This document shows positions 2,066 to 14,925 of a stretch of 16,605 bases of DNA, piece by piece; the first letter of the stretch is position 1; every line of letters starts with the position of its first letter. The notes under the pieces were generated by a model. That model saw only the letters and a program-made list of their open reading frames with translations, made no database searches and was not told the DNA's origin. The translations under genes were made by a program, and so were the position numbers. The stretch is from a bacterium. Its GTDB lineage: Bacteria; UBP18; UBA7526. The stretch covers positions 1 through 16,605 of the forward strand of contig JAUWYL010000023.1 of NCBI GenBank assembly GCA_030615855.1. Direction: 5' to 3'.

Positions 2066-3046
2066 TTAGATTCGTTTGATTCCCAACTCAGTAGCATCGA
2101 CTGGGGTTACGATTATAGATTTAATCGCTCCATCTGGCAATCTTCTATAACCTACCTTTACCTTAGGGAATTCCTTTCCATCGCTATATCGTGCACAGAG
2201 AGAAGCAGCCTCTTCTAAAGTCTCCGCATCCAAATTTCCCCGAACAATGGCCAAGGGTCCCTTGTGACCTATCACATTGAAAGAGGTATCGCCTTCCTTA
2301 GCAAGAGACTTAAGCCTCTTATTCTCATCTTTATTCCTTCCGATTATAATCTTTGATTCCGCTGAGGACCTGAAGTGCCTTCCCAGTTTAAGAAGTAGAA
2401 TATTATCTAAGGTATATTCGTTATGCTTTAAGAGGTCTTTTAGACGCTTGGAAAAGATAGCGTCTGTTAAAAGGCAACCACCTGCTGGAGTGCTATACCT
2501 TCTTAAATTATATCTCTTAGCTAATCCCAGTTGGGGCTTCCTGCTCTTTCCAGAAAGGGCCAATAATTTCTCTCTATTAATCGATCCTCTTTTTTCTGGA
2601 TCTGTAATTGGCAGGAGTTTTGCAGAAAGGGGTCTTAAGAGCTTTTCCTGGATATTTGCTCTCTTCGCTATGGCTTCCAGGATTTGCTTATTCTGGGATC
2701 TCGGCCTCTGTCCCACCACCTCTCCTGTAATGATGAAGGAGGCCTTTACTTCTTCCGTTAGCTCCTTTGCCTTCTTGACCATCAGGATGTGGCAGTCGAT
2801 GCAGGGGTTCATATTCTTTCCATAGCCATACCTGGGATTTTTAACAATCTCTAATATCTCGCTTGATACATCTCTGATGTAGAGTTTGATTCCCAGTTCT
2901 TCTGCTGCCTCTTTAGCATTCTCTGGGCCAAAGAATGGAGAAGTAAAGCTTACTCCCTCAACCTCAATCCCCTGCTCCTGAATTAGCTTAACCGCTAAAG
3001 AACTATCCAGACCCCCAGATAATAAGGCCAGGGCCTTCACTGCCAT
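2066..3046 (-). CDS. PP-loop ATPase with NFACT-R-like C-terminal domain (ThiI/TrmU-like sulfur transfer family)
   Basis: A 326-residue protein. The N-terminus carries a PP-loop ATP-pyrophosphatase motif (LLSGGLDSSLA, residues 9-19), which adenylates a substrate, usually a tRNA uridine. NMNPCIDCHILM near residue 78 resembles the paired cysteines of 2-thiouridine enzymes. The C-terminal third (GRHFRSS, KIIIGRNKDENKRL, GHKGPLAIVRG, EEAASLCARYSDGK) matches the NFACT-R/DUF814-type RNA-binding domain. Such fusions are often annotated as ThiI-like or 'tRNA methyltransferase-like'; the exact modification is unknown to me. I start it at ATG 3044-3046 because AAGGA precedes that codon and the family begins directly with the PP-loop. 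A further 16 codons are open upstream, but they are palindromic-repeat sequence. It follows mnmA, another PP-loop thiolase, and lies between two copies of the same repeat. Confidence 0.75.
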   Translation of the reverse strand: MAVKALALLSGGLDSSLAVKLIQEQGIEVEGVSFTSPFFGPENAKEAAEELGIKLYIRDVSSEILEIVKNPRYGYGKNMNPCIDCHILMVKKAKELTEEVKASFIITGEVVGQRPRSQNKQILEAIAKRANIQEKLLRPLSAKLLPITDPEKRGSINREKLLALSGKSRKPQLGLAKRYNLRRYSTPAGGCLLTDAIFSKRLKDLLKHNEYTLDNILLLKLGRHFRSSAESKIIIGRNKDENKRLKSLAKEGDTSFNVIGHKGPLAIVRGNLDAETLEEAASLCARYSDGKEFPKVKVGYRRLPDGAIKSIIVTPVDATELGIKRI

Positions 3047-3065
3047 ACTAAAATCCTTATTAGAA

Positions 3066-3140
3066 GTTCGTTTACGGTTGACCCGTCCCGACATTCGTCG
3101 GGACTGTTTACCGTTAACCGTACACCGTAAACTGTTAACC
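3066..3140. repeat. GTTAAC-rich palindromic repeat, short copy
   Basis: Lies between the mnmA stop and the PP-loop gene start. It begins CGTTTACGGTTGACCCGTCCC and ends with 44 bases identical to 2018-2061, in the same orientation. Inside is a perfect GTCCCGA/TCGGGAC stem around a five-base loop (about 3085-3103). Translated, its right side forms the false N-terminal extension of the PP-loop gene. Confidence 0.85.
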
Positions 3141-9005: not shown

Positions 9006-9056
9006 AATAAGAACCTGACTCCGTCAGAACCTTGTTTTGCTTATTCAAGTTCCGAT
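9006..9056. repeat. AAGAACCTGAC palindromic repeat upstream of the LytM gene
   Basis: Begins AATAAGAACCTGAC, with a CTGAC-TCC-GTCAG hairpin, then CAGAACCTTGTT. It shares its first 14 bases and the CAGAACCTTGTT block with the insert inside rsmG (11805-11867). It lies between the promoter and the LytM start and creates the false N-terminal extension of that ORF. Confidence 0.8.
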
Positions 9057-9060
9057 GCTT

Positions 9061-9091
9061 CAAAATAACACAGGATAGATGGCTTTGTCAA
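9061..9091 (-). promoter_or_regulatory. Sigma70-like promoter for the LytM-bactofilin pair
   Basis: On the minus strand there is a perfect -35 TTGACA (9086-9091), followed at 15-17 bases by an AT-rich -10 region TGTTATTTT (9061-9070). The start codon of the LytM gene lies about 80 bases downstream. The -10 is imperfect, so the exact hexamer is uncertain. Confidence 0.6.
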
Positions 9092-10958: not shown

Positions 10959-11107
10959 AGATAAGCCTCACTCCACTCAGCAATCTTCACAGATTAGCAC
11001 AGATTGACTAAACTGATTAGCACGGATTTAGTGATAAGAATCAGTGCTAATCCGTATCTTTTAGTCCGTGCCCATCCGTGTAACTATCAAAATTCCAAAG
11101 CTTAAAT
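10959..11107. repeat. Long intergenic repeat, copy A
   Basis: Starts AGATAAGCCTCACT, then AGATTAGCACAGATTGACTAAACTGATTAGCACGG, GTGCTAATCCGTATCTTTTA, GTCCGTGCCCATCCGTGTAACTAT and a tail CAAAATTCCAAAGC. Copy B (12824-13049) has the same parts in the same order and orientation, plus an extra 80-base insert. GATTAGCAC and GTGCTAATC form a 9-base stem. It lies between the parA promoter and parA, so it would be the 5' leader of the parAB mRNA. Confidence 0.9.
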
Positions 11108-11179: not shown

Positions 11180-11199
11180 AATATTCCACGTGGAATATT
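11180..11199. promoter_or_regulatory. parS-like ParB-binding palindrome 1
   Basis: AATATTCCACGTGGAATATT is a perfect 20-base palindrome with the core TTCCACGTGGAA of bacterial parS (commonly TGTTCCACGTGGAACA). The usual G/C at the outer position is A/T here. It lies in the rsmG-parA gap, as expected of parS. Confidence 0.85.
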
Positions 11200-11206
11200 C
11201 TGAAGA

Positions 11207-11272
11207 GTTTACAGTTACCAGTTTACAGTAACCAGTTTTTTACTGTTAACTGTTCGCTGGTTACTGGTTACT
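11207..11272. repeat. GTAACCAGT/ACTGGTTAC inverted repeat
   Basis: Contains several CCAGTTT/GTTAAC words and a 9-base stem GTAACCAGT (11228-11236) against ACTGGTTAC (11263-11271). It is in the gap after rsmG. No U-run follows, so it is not scored as a terminator. Confidence 0.65.
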
Positions 11273-11303: not shown

Positions 11304-12092
11304 TTATCTCAAGGGCCTCTTCTGAGGGATTCCTGAACAGCGGGGGAATCTATGGGGTGTTTCCAATATCTTCTCAATAATTACTAATTTTCTCAATTTA
11401 CGGGAGAAGGGGAGTTTTAAAGAGATAATCCCTTTTAGATCTCCTCCTAATATCTCAATGGCCTTCCTCGCTTCTTCCAGTTCCTTACCTAAATTCTGGC
11501 CTTTTTGAGCGATGAATAGACCTCTAATTTTTAAGAAGGGGATTCCCAACTCAACGAGGATATTTAACCTTGCTAATGCCCGGGCTAAGACTATATCATA
11601 TCTTTCTCGATATCCTTCCTTTCTTCCATACTCTTCTGCCCGGCCCCAGATTATCTCTAAGTCCTTTAGTCGCAAGGACTTAGAGAGATATCTCAAGAAC
11701 TCTATCCTCTTTCTTGAAGAGTCAAGAAGCGATAGGGAAATCTGAGGTTTTAGAATCTTCAGAGGAATTCCAGGGAATCCAGCACCAGTCCCGATGTCTA
11801 TAACTCTAATAAGAACCTGACCTTTGGGCAGAACCTTGTTACTTTGTAAGTTAAAGTTCGGGTAGGGCGTAATAGGACCAATCTCTTCTATTCCTTTGAT
11901 AATTGTCAGGGAATCCAAAAAGTGGGTAATGATGATCTCTCTTGGATCCTTAAGAGAAGTTAGGTTCATCCTCTTGTTCCAATTCCGGAGGATCTCTAAA
12001 TAGGTGAGAAACTGTTTGACCTGCCTCTCACTTAACTCAAGCCCTAACTCTTCTGCTCCGTCAACAAGGATCTTCTTTAATTTGCTTGACAT
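11304..12092 (-). CDS. rsmG: 16S rRNA (guanine527-N7)-methyltransferase RsmG (GidB)
   Basis: A 262-residue SAM-dependent methyltransferase of 16S rRNA G527. Motifs: NWNKRMNLTSLKDP near residue 37, THFLDSL at 56, the SAM loop VIDIGTGAGFPGIPLKI at 97-113, DSSRKRIEFL near 123 and VLARALARLNILVEL near 158. The C-terminus PRCSGIPQKRPL is typical of Gram-positive-like RsmG. Between the FLDSL helix and the SAM loop there is an extra segment of about 21 residues (76-96) encoded by an AAGAACCTGAC repeat; B. subtilis RsmG has a much shorter link here. The frame is intact. Its Shine-Dalgarno (GGAA, nine bases before ATG) is the right half of parS-like site 2. It lies between DUF4416 and parA, in the classical origin-proximal place. 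Confidence 0.95.
   Translation of the reverse strand: MSSKLKKILVDGAEELGLELSERQVKQFLTYLEILRNWNKRMNLTSLKDPREIIITHFLDSLTIIKGIEEIGPITPYPNFNLQSNKVLPKGQVLIRVIDIGTGAGFPGIPLKILKPQISLSLLDSSRKRIEFLRYLSKSLRLKDLEIIWGRAEEYGRKEGYRERYDIVLARALARLNILVELGIPFLKIRGLFIAQKGQNLGKELEEARKAIEILGGDLKGIISLKLPFSRKLRKLVIIEKILETPHRFPRCSGIPQKRPLR
11805..11867. repeat. AAGAACCTGAC repeat inserted in rsmG
   Basis: AATAAGAACCTGAC, then CAGAACCTTGTT, then AAGTTCGG-like sequence. It is colinear with the intergenic copy at 9006-9056 and encodes residues 76-96 of RsmG in frame. Confidence 0.85.
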
Positions 12093-12272: not shown

Positions 12273-12800
12273 TCACTGTCTTAGTTGCTCCATATAGATT
12301 TTTCGGATATGGTTGAAGATTTTGATATATTCCTTCGTCCTATAATCGGGATAGGTCCACTCCCAGGGAGTGAAACTCCCTTTCTTGTATCTCAAGGTTA
12401 CTTCTCCATAGATCCCCTTTTCATAGTATATTCGGTGCTGATAATCCTTTGTAGTGGCCAAAACTAACTTGGCCGGAGCGAGATATCCCGGATCCAAGTT
12501 GATCAAACGATTCCCTCTTTTATCACCAAACCTTTTCTCTAAGTTATTGGTGAGTATCTTAATCCTGGGCAATTCCTCTGCCTTAATCAGTCTCTTAAAA
12601 GAGTAAAACTTTCTCTCCAAATCCTTCCCGAACTCTTCTTCATAGTAATCCGTCCTATCGAAGGGAAGCAGGGGACTCTCATAATCTACCGGCCCGAACC
12701 TCTTCTTCAATGCTCTCAAGGCTCCTTGAAAGAGTTCTGGCCTATTAGTAAACATCCCTATTACTAGTTTTACTGGTCTATGCTCTTTTACTTTGCCCAC
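12273..12800 (-). CDS. DUF4416 family protein
   Basis: A protein of about 175 residues. The N-terminus VGKVKEHRPVKLVIGMFTNRPELF and the later FDRTDYYEEEFGKDLERKFYSFKRL, RLINLDPGYLAPAKLVLATTKDYQHRIYY and TYPDYRTKEYIKIFNHIRKIYMEQLRQ are the conserved blocks of DUF4416. This is an uncharacterised cytoplasmic family found in Deltaproteobacteria-like, Omnitrophota and related lineages. No signal peptide or TM segment is visible, and no function is known to me. I start it at GTG 12798-12800 (Shine-Dalgarno AAAGGA six bases upstream), where family proteins normally begin. The open frame continues 18 codons to a GTG at 12854. That extension is shared repeat sequence (AGTGAGGCTTATCT also precedes parA), and its start codon lies in a MITE-like inverted repeat. 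It sits between mnmG and rsmG. Confidence 0.8.
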   Translation of the reverse strand: MGKVKEHRPVKLVIGMFTNRPELFQGALRALKKRFGPVDYESPLLPFDRTDYYEEEFGKDLERKFYSFKRLIKAEELPRIKILTNNLEKRFGDKRGNRLINLDPGYLAPAKLVLATTKDYQHRIYYEKGIYGEVTLRYKKGSFTPWEWTYPDYRTKEYIKIFNHIRKIYMEQLRQ

Positions 12801-12823
12801 TCTTCTTCCTTTCTCCTCTCGCA

Positions 12824-13049
12824 AGATAAGCCTCACTTCGTTTGGCAATTTCACCCCGCACCTTTTAAATATTCAGAATTTCCTGAATACTTAAATAATG
12901 CCTTTATGAATGCTAAAAAGGTGCGGGGCAAGCAGATTAGCACAGATTGACTAAACTGATTAGCACGGATTTAGCAATGAGCATCAGTGCTAATCCGTAT
13001 CTTTTAATCCGTGCCCATCCGTGTAACTATTCAAATTTCCAACGCTTTA
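12824..13049. repeat. Long intergenic repeat, copy B (interrupted)
   Basis: Same order of parts as copy A at 10959-11107: AGATAAGCCTCACT, then an extra 80-base insert at 12854-12933, then AGATTAGCACAGATTGACTAAACTGATTAGCACGG, GTGCTAATCCGTATCTTTTA, ATCCGTGCCCATCCGTGTAACTAT and a tail TCAAATTTCCAACGC. The right tail includes the mnmG stop codon and its last codons. The left end enters the DUF4416 reading frame. Confidence 0.9.
12854..12928. mobile_element. MITE-like element with 13-base terminal inverted repeats
   Basis: Perfect terminal inverted repeats CCCCGCACCTTTT (12854-12866) and AAAAGGTGCGGGG (12916-12928) enclose about 50 AT-rich bases with an internal TATTCAG/CTGAATA hairpin (12870-12889). 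Copy A of the surrounding repeat lacks this block, which gives an empty-site comparison. Too short to encode a protein. No clear target duplication. Confidence 0.7.
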
Positions 13050-14925
13050 AATAAACCAAGAGTAAGGAGATATCAGAGGGGTTTACTCCCGAGATTCTCG
13101 ATGCCTGACCGATGGAGACGGGCCTTATGCTATTCAGCTTCTCCTTAGATTCAATCCTCAGTCCCTCTAGTTTAGAATAATTGAAGTCAAGGGGGATTCT
13201 CTTTTCCTCAAGCCTCTTAAATTTTTCTATCTGCTCCAATTCTCTTTTAATATAACCCTCATACTTCAGGGCAATCTCCACTCCTTGGGCAACCTCAGAA
13301 GATATTTTCCTCTCGTCCTCATCGATCTTGACAAGGTCTTTATATCTCGCCTCTGGCCTCTTAAGAATCTGTGATAGGGAAGTATCCTCCTTTATGGAAT
13401 CTGTCCCCAGTTTCTTTAAGAGATTATTTACCCTTCTAGTCGGCCGGGCGAGACTCTTCCTCAACCTTTTGATCTCTTTTTCTATTTGAGTATACTTTCT
13501 CTGACATCTCTCATAGTCCTTTCGAGAGACAAGGCCGAACCTGTGACCATACTTCATGAGTCTCTGGTCGGCATTGTCGCACCTCAGGATCAACCTATGC
13601 TCTGCCCGGGAAGTGAACATGCGATAGGGCTCCCTTGTTCCCTTAGTCACTAAATCATCGATTAAGACGCCAATATAGGCTTCGGATCTATCGAGAATAA
13701 AGGTCTCTTTCCCTCGAATCTTCAATACCGCATTTATTCCTGCCATTAAACCCTGGGCAGCAGCCTCTTCATATCCCGAGGTTCCATTGATCTGTCCAAC
13801 AAGGAAAAGGTTTTTAACCCTCTTTGTTTCAAGGGAGGGTTTTAGCTGAGTAGGAGGAACGAAGTCATACTCAATGGCATATCCTGGCTTGGTAATCTCG
13901 ACCTTCTCCAGGCCCTTCACGGTGTGCAGGGCTTCAAGCTGTACTCTTTCAGAAAATCCAGTGAAAAAGCCGTTCACATAGTATTCAGTAGTATCCCTTC
14001 CCTCTGGCTCTAGGAATATCTGATGCCTCTTCTTCTCTGGGAATCGGGCAATCTTCTCCTCAATAGAGGGGCAGTATCTCGGTGGAAGGCCCCTTGCTTT
14101 ACCAGTGATAAGAGGGGAATCTCTTAAATTCTTCTTAATTACCCTGTGAGTAGCATCATTTGTGAAGGCGAGGTAGCAGGGGATTTGCTTGGTTTCGATC
14201 TCTTTAGTTGAGAAAGAAAGGGGCGGTGGGGGAGTATCTCCAGGCTGTTTAATCAGTTTACTGAAATTGACCGTCTTTCCCTCGATCCTGGGAGGGGTGC
14301 AGGTATTGAGCCTGCCCAACTTTAAGCCGATATCTTTTAGGCTATCAGAGAGTCTATCGGCAGGGAATTCACCCATCCTTCCCGCAGGAAAGGATACTTT
14401 ACCCATTAAGATTAAACCCCTTAAGAAGGTCCCTGTTGCTAAGATGATTGCTTTTCCCTTATATTCTATCCCTGTCTGAGTTTTGATCCCGATCGCTTTC
14501 TTACCTTTGACTATGATTTTCTCTACTAAGCCCTGTGTGAGATTAAGATTCTTCTCTTTCTTCAAGACCTTTCTCATGCTTATCCTATAATCTCTTCTAT
14601 CTGCCTGGGCGCGTGGGGCTTGAACCGCTGGCCCCTTCTTGGTATTGAGCATCCGGAACTGAATCCCAGTCCTATCGATATTCCTGGCCATCTTTCCACC
14701 AAGAGCGTCTATCTCCCGGACGAGATGGCTTTTACCCAATCCTCCGATGGCTGGATTACAGGACATATGGGCAATATTATCTAAGTTTGAAGTTATTAGT
14801 AGTGCCCTCGTTCCCATCCTTGATGAGGCCAAAGCGGCCTCACAACCAGCATGCCCCCCACCGATAACGATAACATCGTACTCTTTTTTAAAGGTGCGGA
14901 AAGAAACTTTTTTATATTTAGCCAT
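13027..14925 (-). CDS. mnmG: tRNA wobble-uridine modification FAD enzyme MnmG (GidA)
   Basis: A protein of about 632 residues that, with MnmE, adds the carboxymethylaminomethyl group to C5 of the wobble uridine. The FAD site VIVIGGGHAGCEAALASSRMG is at about residues 18-38. Catalytic cysteines sit in MSCNPAIGGLGKSHLVREID (near 56) and PPRYCPSIEEKI (near 285). Other signatures are MLNTKKGPAVQAPRAQADR and GTSGYEEAAAQGLMAGINA, and the C-terminal MnmE-binding helical domain ends SRISGVNPSDISLLLVYLK. Two ATGs are adjacent; the second (14923-14925) has better spacing to AAGGA. The final residues RWKFE and the TAG stop lie in the right tail of repeat copy B, so the natural C-terminus may have been replaced by repeat sequence. 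Length is normal for the family. Confidence 0.97.
   Translation of the reverse strand: MAKYKKVSFRTFKKEYDVIVIGGGHAGCEAALASSRMGTRALLITSNLDNIAHMSCNPAIGGLGKSHLVREIDALGGKMARNIDRTGIQFRMLNTKKGPAVQAPRAQADRRDYRISMRKVLKKEKNLNLTQGLVEKIIVKGKKAIGIKTQTGIEYKGKAIILATGTFLRGLILMGKVSFPAGRMGEFPADRLSDSLKDIGLKLGRLNTCTPPRIEGKTVNFSKLIKQPGDTPPPPLSFSTKEIETKQIPCYLAFTNDATHRVIKKNLRDSPLITGKARGLPPRYCPSIEEKIARFPEKKRHQIFLEPEGRDTTEYYVNGFFTGFSERVQLEALHTVKGLEKVEITKPGYAIEYDFVPPTQLKPSLETKRVKNLFLVGQINGTSGYEEAAAQGLMAGINAVLKIRGKETFILDRSEAYIGVLIDDLVTKGTREPYRMFTSRAEHRLILRCDNADQRLMKYGHRFGLVSRKDYERCQRKYTQIEKEIKRLRKSLARPTRRVNNLLKKLGTDSIKEDTSLSQILKRPEARYKDLVKIDEDERKISSEVAQGVEIALKYEGYIKRELEQIEKFKRLEEKRIPLDFNYSKLEGLRIESKEKLNSIRPVSIGQASRISGVNPSDISLLLVYLKRWKFE

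Follow-up and report, generated by a model that had tools for sequence, protein, structure and literature searches.

A two-hairpin repeat apparently inserted in frame in rsmG and the family of probable mobile elements to which it belongs

The rsmG gene and its 21 additional codons

The window, i.e., the whole stretch of 16,605 nt that was analysed, lies on contig 36 of a 1.375 Mb genome assembled in 45 contigs (G000). It includes an rsmG (gidB) gene with a complete repeat unit inside its coding sequence, and a second copy of the repeat in the leader of an M23/LytM gene:

11304..12092, minus strand: rsmG (gidB), 262 aa, frame intact; Pfam GidB (PF02527), E 2.4e-47
11812..11874, plus strand: complete repeat unit, 63 bp, AGAACC...GTAATA, in frame and antisense to rsmG
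11811..11873, minus strand: codons of the insert (63 nt), RsmG residues 74-94, ITPYPNFNLQSNKVLPKGQVL, from the RsmG protein alignment
11809..11811, plus strand: ATA immediately 5' of the unit; either the target motif or part of a target duplication
11818..11830, plus strand: hairpin 1 of the rsmG copy, TGACCTTTGGGCA, with one mismatch
11831..11838, plus strand: linker GAACCTTG of the rsmG copy, invariant in alignment A1 (Clostridia and the G000 family)
11839..11872, plus strand: hairpin 2 of the rsmG copy, long subtype, arms TTAC/GTAA
9010..9067, plus strand: 58-bp sister copy within the leader of the M23/LytM gene; covariance model match at 9007-9067, 39.6 bits, E 3e-8
9016-9026, 9027-9034 and 9035-9065, plus strand: hairpin 1, GAACCTTG and hairpin 2 of the second copy

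The gene product is a member of the RsmG/GidB family, having both the GidB domain and, in the protein alignment, the SAM motif GTGAGFPG. The rsmG unit matches a covariance model of the repeat at 11809-11874 (40.4 bits, E 2e-8); its boundaries at 11812-11874 are fixed only to within a few bases. On an alternative reading, the ATA at 11809-11811 is one side of a target duplication of 3-5 bp, and TAATA at 11870-11874 holds the other. An earlier note on this DNA had described an in-frame insert at 11805-11867, encoding RsmG residues 76-96. The insert and its coding within RsmG are borne out, while the coordinates become 11812-11874 and, by alignment, the residues become 74-94. As that note had also claimed, the length is a multiple of three with the frame open, the two sister stretches (9006 and 11808) both contain AATAAGAACCTGAC and CAGAACCTTGTT in the same order, and the sister repeat precedes a LytM gene, an M23 domain having been found in the gene downstream of the 9010-9067 copy. 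The two copies have only a core of ~31 bp in common, and their hairpins 2 are of different subtypes. The covariance model finds exactly these two matches in the window (E ~1e-8). The core pattern, ATAAGAACCT-N(3-25)-GAACCTTGTT, occurred in 0 of 300 Markov-shuffled windows, and its reversed control had no occurrence in any genome searched.

Comparison with relatives provides strong evidence that the additional codons are an insertion. In an alignment of RsmG with 17 other sequences, the insert is present only in G000 and in a second genome of the same genus, G002, where it occupies the same site and differs at a single base of the 63. The 21 residues are absent from the RsmG of G001 (same genus), G003 and G004 (same family), in which the helix joins the SAM strand directly. 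They are also absent from B. subtilis RsmG (PDB 1XDZ), which has the shorter link that the earlier note had described. On the element strand, the empty sites read CTCTAATTGGTCC or CTCTAATGGGATC, and the filled site of G000 reads CTCTAATA, then AGAACC...GTAATA, then GGACC. Because two independent assemblies contain the insert, an artefact of assembly is unlikely. No repeat-free relative carries the same 21 residues; the sole other carrier, G002, is itself rich in the repeat (31 copies). Judged from these sequence comparisons, the 21 extra residues of RsmG are almost certainly a repeat inserted in frame.

Architecture and distribution of the element

Beyond the insert in RsmG, the more important result is the family of elements. 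Copies listed with their flanks have the layout ATA, then AGAACC-hairpin 1-GAACCTTG-hairpin 2-TA, in units of 37-81 bp. The invariant flanks are ATAAGAACC and GAACCTTG, and the same exact ends recur in more than 100 copies from several phyla. The sequence and length of hairpin 1 are free to vary while its pairing is kept, with compensatory changes over 98 distinct sequences; Watson-Crick pairing reaches 94% at position 2, versus 46% when shuffled, and 84% at position 5, versus 28%. Hairpin 2 has closing arms of the form TTnn/nnAA and occurs with 12 arm types (TTAC/GTAA, TTTT/AAAA, TTAT/ATAA, TTTC/GAAA, TTGC/GCAA and others). A 4-bp closure with TA directly after it is seen in 113 of 156 copies, versus 3% of control stretches. 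Alignment A1, a gap-free set of 14 copies comprising 12 Clostridia-type records and two from the G000 family, was the source of the covariance model, which is hence built mainly from Clostridia. It has both-sided changes in seven of its 12 pairs, including five of the six in hairpin 1, and its covariation score was reached by none of 500 shuffles. Since the rsmG copy folded alone is no better than shuffles (z ~0.3), and its hairpin 1 has a mismatch, the evidence for structure comes from the family as a whole; in G002, the counterpart of that hairpin, TGCCCTTTGGGCA, pairs perfectly.

The loops of hairpin 1 are informative about strand. Among 47 triloops, 25 read TNC, 41 are closed by C-G, and none reads GNA on the plus strand. 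TNC is GNA on the other strand, where the hairpin reads d(C-GNA-G). Sequences of the form d(C-GNA-G), GCGAAGC included, are a class of very stable DNA mini-hairpins. This loop bias favours single-stranded DNA of the strand opposite AGAACC as the working form.

The exact pattern finds 22 copies in G000, mostly between genes and in both orientations relative to the flanking genes, and the covariance model finds 41. By the same model, G001 has 46 copies, G002 31, G004 21, G005 32 and G003 one. Some copies form tandem arrays, in which neighbouring copies share an ATAA junction. An exact scan of genome contigs yielded at least 112 stretches in gut Clostridia, Patescibacteria, Desantisbacteria and other bacteria; the patescibacterial carriers among the matches listed are Shapiro-, Nealson-, Blackburn- and Parcubacteria. 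In a broad sample of 386 genomes, only seven carried the element: five of the six genomes from the G000 family and two that, from matching coordinates, appear to be Desantisbacteria assemblies. The element family is hence patchy across phyla. The 50-nt element consensus had no match in plasmid and phage collections, and an Rfam search at gathering thresholds matched no family. Pattern matches in viral contigs lacked hairpins, except for L160, and were taken as chance, as were two matches without a hairpin inside unrelated coding sequence (L045, L113). Hairpin 2 of the same type (TTTTATTCGCTTCGCTCATAAAA) also occurs coupled to another short family, GAGCCAAGCAAGTTGTCTC, at four loci (L165, L166, L174, L182).

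Copies inside genes and tRNAs

The earlier note had suggested looking for further copies inside genes across the genome, and such a search found the element in other genes with empty sites in relatives. In the G000 family, gene-internal units lie in rsmG (63 bp), ispE (48 bp), pilM (48 bp) and, in G002, Memo-AMMECR1 (48 bp). Elsewhere, they lie in genes for PBP1A (57 bp), acetyl-CoA synthetase (51 bp) and a GTPase (51 bp). The set is completed by genes for an APH-like protein (48 bp) and an HMA-DsbA protein (63 bp). The host genes are unrelated, and the copies occur on either strand and in several reading frames. All nine unit lengths are multiples of three, which by chance would have a probability of ~2e-5, but the set consists of ORFs open across the copy, and such picking alone favours multiples of three. 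A stronger point is that these ORFs run on into conserved domains on both sides of the copy. Over all 122 insertions, unit lengths are even modulo 3 (36/42/44). With nine of nine multiples of three inside genes, this places the origin of coding compatibility in selection: compatible insertions were kept, and compatibility is not intrinsic to the repeat. The earlier note's description of the repeat as coding-compatible thus holds for the rsmG copy and does not extend to the repeat in general. At four further loci (L046, L055, L097, L120), an ORF spans a copy whose length does not divide by three; the ORF end concerned lacks homology support, and these were not counted as gene insertions.

Clean empty sites are available for rsmG, ispE and Memo-AMMECR1. 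The Memo-AMMECR1 gene is empty in G000, G001 and G003, being exactly 48 bp shorter there than in G002. Four relatives have an empty ispE site, and the native site already equals the element over 12 bases, reading ATAAGAACCTGA or nearly so in the relatives. For pilM, the site is empty in G002 and holds two copies in a row in G000. Two of these genes also have other inserts. In G001, Memo-AMMECR1 (L263) has a different palindromic in-frame insert of 66 bp (AACCCCGTTAGAAGT...ACTTCTAACGGGG), ~12 codons from the site where G002 carries the element. The IspE of G002 and G005 (L235, L236) has, at the same place in both, another in-frame insert (..CPPSL..RSGVSRR..) that is absent from other relatives and represents a further repeat family in coding sequence.

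Several gut Clostridia have extra copies of tRNA-Arg(CCT) that are interrupted by the element between GGATA and TAA, with an intact tRNA-Arg(CCT) beside most of them. The interrupted loci are L067 (331-860), L049, L052, L091, L092, L094, L117 and L122. The extra copies are partly truncated, and the insertion point, at the junction of D-loop and D-stem, is a repeated hot spot. Splicing of the interrupted tRNAs was considered and is unneeded, given the adjoining intact copies. As at rsmG, ispE and Memo-AMMECR1, ATA precedes the element at the tRNA-Arg sites.

Mobility of the element and alternative explanations

The repeat family is very probably a mobile element, and the explanation that we favour as a whole, with good though lesser confidence, is that a small non-autonomous mobile element inserted into an ancestral, uninterrupted rsmG. 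Insertion would occur directly 3' of ATA; all empty sites fit this rule or, equally, a short target duplication, since the element ends in AATA. That 3' end would offer a target to the next copy, which would account for the tandem arrays. The form that moves would most likely be single-stranded DNA folded into the two hairpins; the odds on such a mechanism are about even. The mobilising enzyme would be supplied in trans. Inside genes, only copies with an open frame and a length that is a multiple of three, in tolerant loops, would be expected to survive. The site in RsmG lies between the N-terminal helices and the first SAM-domain strand, probably in a neutral surface loop, and the insert is fairly likely to be neutral for RsmG.

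Searches for an enzyme bear on this proposal. Y1 transposase (PF01797) was found in none of six G000-family genomes (53-94% complete), with positive controls, and reverse transcriptase was found in none of the same six; with this absence from all six, both were rejected as local mobilisers. Y1 genes are present in eight of 12 other carriers, where they are neither flanked by the element nor linked to copies; the single Y1 gene close to a copy is in a genome where copies are dense. An all-against-all comparison of ORFs near copies revealed no recurring gene. The family thus lacks a candidate enzyme, and this, like the poor folding of the rsmG copy by itself and the ambiguity over a target duplication, counts against the favoured explanation. 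A tentative and rather doubtful extension is that a hitherto undescribed single-stranded-DNA transposition system, without Y1 or reverse transcriptase, moves the two-hairpin element across phyla. Such a system would span Clostridia, Patescibacteria, Desantisbacteria and the G000 lineage, and would have repeatedly lengthened conserved proteins.

There are clear parallels with known systems. Rickettsia palindromic elements (RPEs; Ogata 2000, 2002) insert in frame into genes (PMC10969869). Like RPEs, the element is a short, hairpin-forming repeat found in frame in unrelated housekeeping genes and absent from orthologues, as with rsmG, ispE, pilM and Memo-AMMECR1, which are uninterrupted in relatives, and neither has a known enzyme. 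RPEs differ in being ~150 bp long with a conserved encoded peptide, whereas the element described here is 37-81 bp, has two separate hairpins, lies in several frames without a conserved peptide, has a neutral length distribution and occurs in several other phyla. GTAG/CGTC REPs can be intragenic, adding 20-30 residues (PMC3733652). REPs and REPINs (PMC3733652, PMC3116915) are likewise small dispersed palindromes, partly intragenic, in phylogenetically scattered hosts; however, the present element has no GTAG or CGTC tag, has a fixed AGAACC and GAACCTTG, forms direct tandem arrays, and occurs in a family without the Y1 protein RAYT. IS200/IS605 elements and their palindrome-associated non-autonomous derivatives resemble it in having subterminal hairpins near both ends (here two, both covarying), strand asymmetry, no inverted terminal repeats and, apparently, insertion 3' of a short motif; here the element always follows ATA, but its AATA end would also fit a target duplication. 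In contrast to them, the five element-bearing family genomes have no Y1 gene, and no autonomous copy was seen. MITEs are also short, non-autonomous, dispersed and occasionally coding, but the ends of the present element (AGAACC, AATA) are not inverted copies of each other, and a target duplication is not demonstrable for it. Thus, the element works like RPEs and intragenic REPs without their tags or partner enzyme, and no description of its motifs was found in the open-access literature. Palindromic insertions in frame had been a curiosity of Rickettsia, apart from scattered cases among REPs. The element described here is sharply defined by its fixed motifs and its variable, covarying stems, and it breaks up both genes and tRNA copies across several phyla. 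The many natural pairs of filled and empty sites could be used to measure the tolerance of proteins to insertions of 15-21 residues, and the defined ends, target and strand make the element a precise substrate for finding the mobilising enzyme.

The main rival to a mobile element, which we consider unlikely, needs no dedicated enzyme: replication forks would spread copies by switching templates at short homologies (AATAAGAACC). The native ispE site is its best support: the 12-base identity of ATAAGAACCTGA with the start of the element is not predicted by a pure ATA rule and counts against the favoured explanation. The AATAAACC-like tRNA target, the tandem arrays, and the lack of Y1 and reverse transcriptase in the G000 family are also consistent with template switching. 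However, chance homology gives scattered ends, whereas the ends are constant in more than 100 copies from several phyla, and the rsmG and Memo sites have little more than ATA in common with the element.

It is improbable that the repeat is instead a functional regulatory RNA (a processing site, a terminator or an attenuator) carried along with genes and not selfish mobile DNA, the rsmG copy having become coding. Such a role would fit the strong covariation, the intergenic position of most G000 copies, and the slow divergence of shared copies. At three sites common to G000 and G002 (L015/L228, L219/L226, L221/L168), the elements differ at 2 of ~181 bases, versus ~17 predicted from flanking DNA that is ~13% different; this is unexpected for neutral debris and counts against the favoured explanation. 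Evidence against a regulatory RNA comes from the presence of both orientations relative to flanking genes, from copies inside unrelated genes on either strand, inside tRNA copies and in tandem arrays, and from the lack of an Rfam match; the loop bias is also easier to reconcile with a DNA triloop on the opposite strand than with an RNA tetraloop. Slightly less probable is that RsmG has adopted the insert and kept it as useful. While a single difference in 63 bp between flanks ~13% different would suggest constraint, the intergenic copies at the two other common sites are equally conserved, so the low divergence is not specific to RsmG, and three relatives do without the insert. An ordinary lineage-specific expansion of a loop, resembling the repeat by chance, has next to no probability: helix-strand loops of RsmG often vary in length in the alignment, but this one holds a full-length element (E ~1e-8, with a mostly clostridial training set) and the genome has 41 copies; the RsmG alignment, the empty sites at the DNA level and the covariance match refute it.

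The window contains other repeats apart from the mobile element proposed here. Two intergenic copies of 110 bp (10990-11099 and 12933-13042), 92% identical, are built on ATCCGTG words, and short related stretches recur elsewhere in the window. A perfect 44-bp direct repeat (2018-2061 and 3097-3140) lies on both sides of the gene at 2066-3094, and a weaker relative occupies 11198-11241. An inverted repeat, CCCCGCACCTTTT / AAAAGGTGCGGGG (12854-12928 and 14886-14906), lies beside the gene at 12273-12854, and a third arm related to these is found close to where the gidA-like gene starts.
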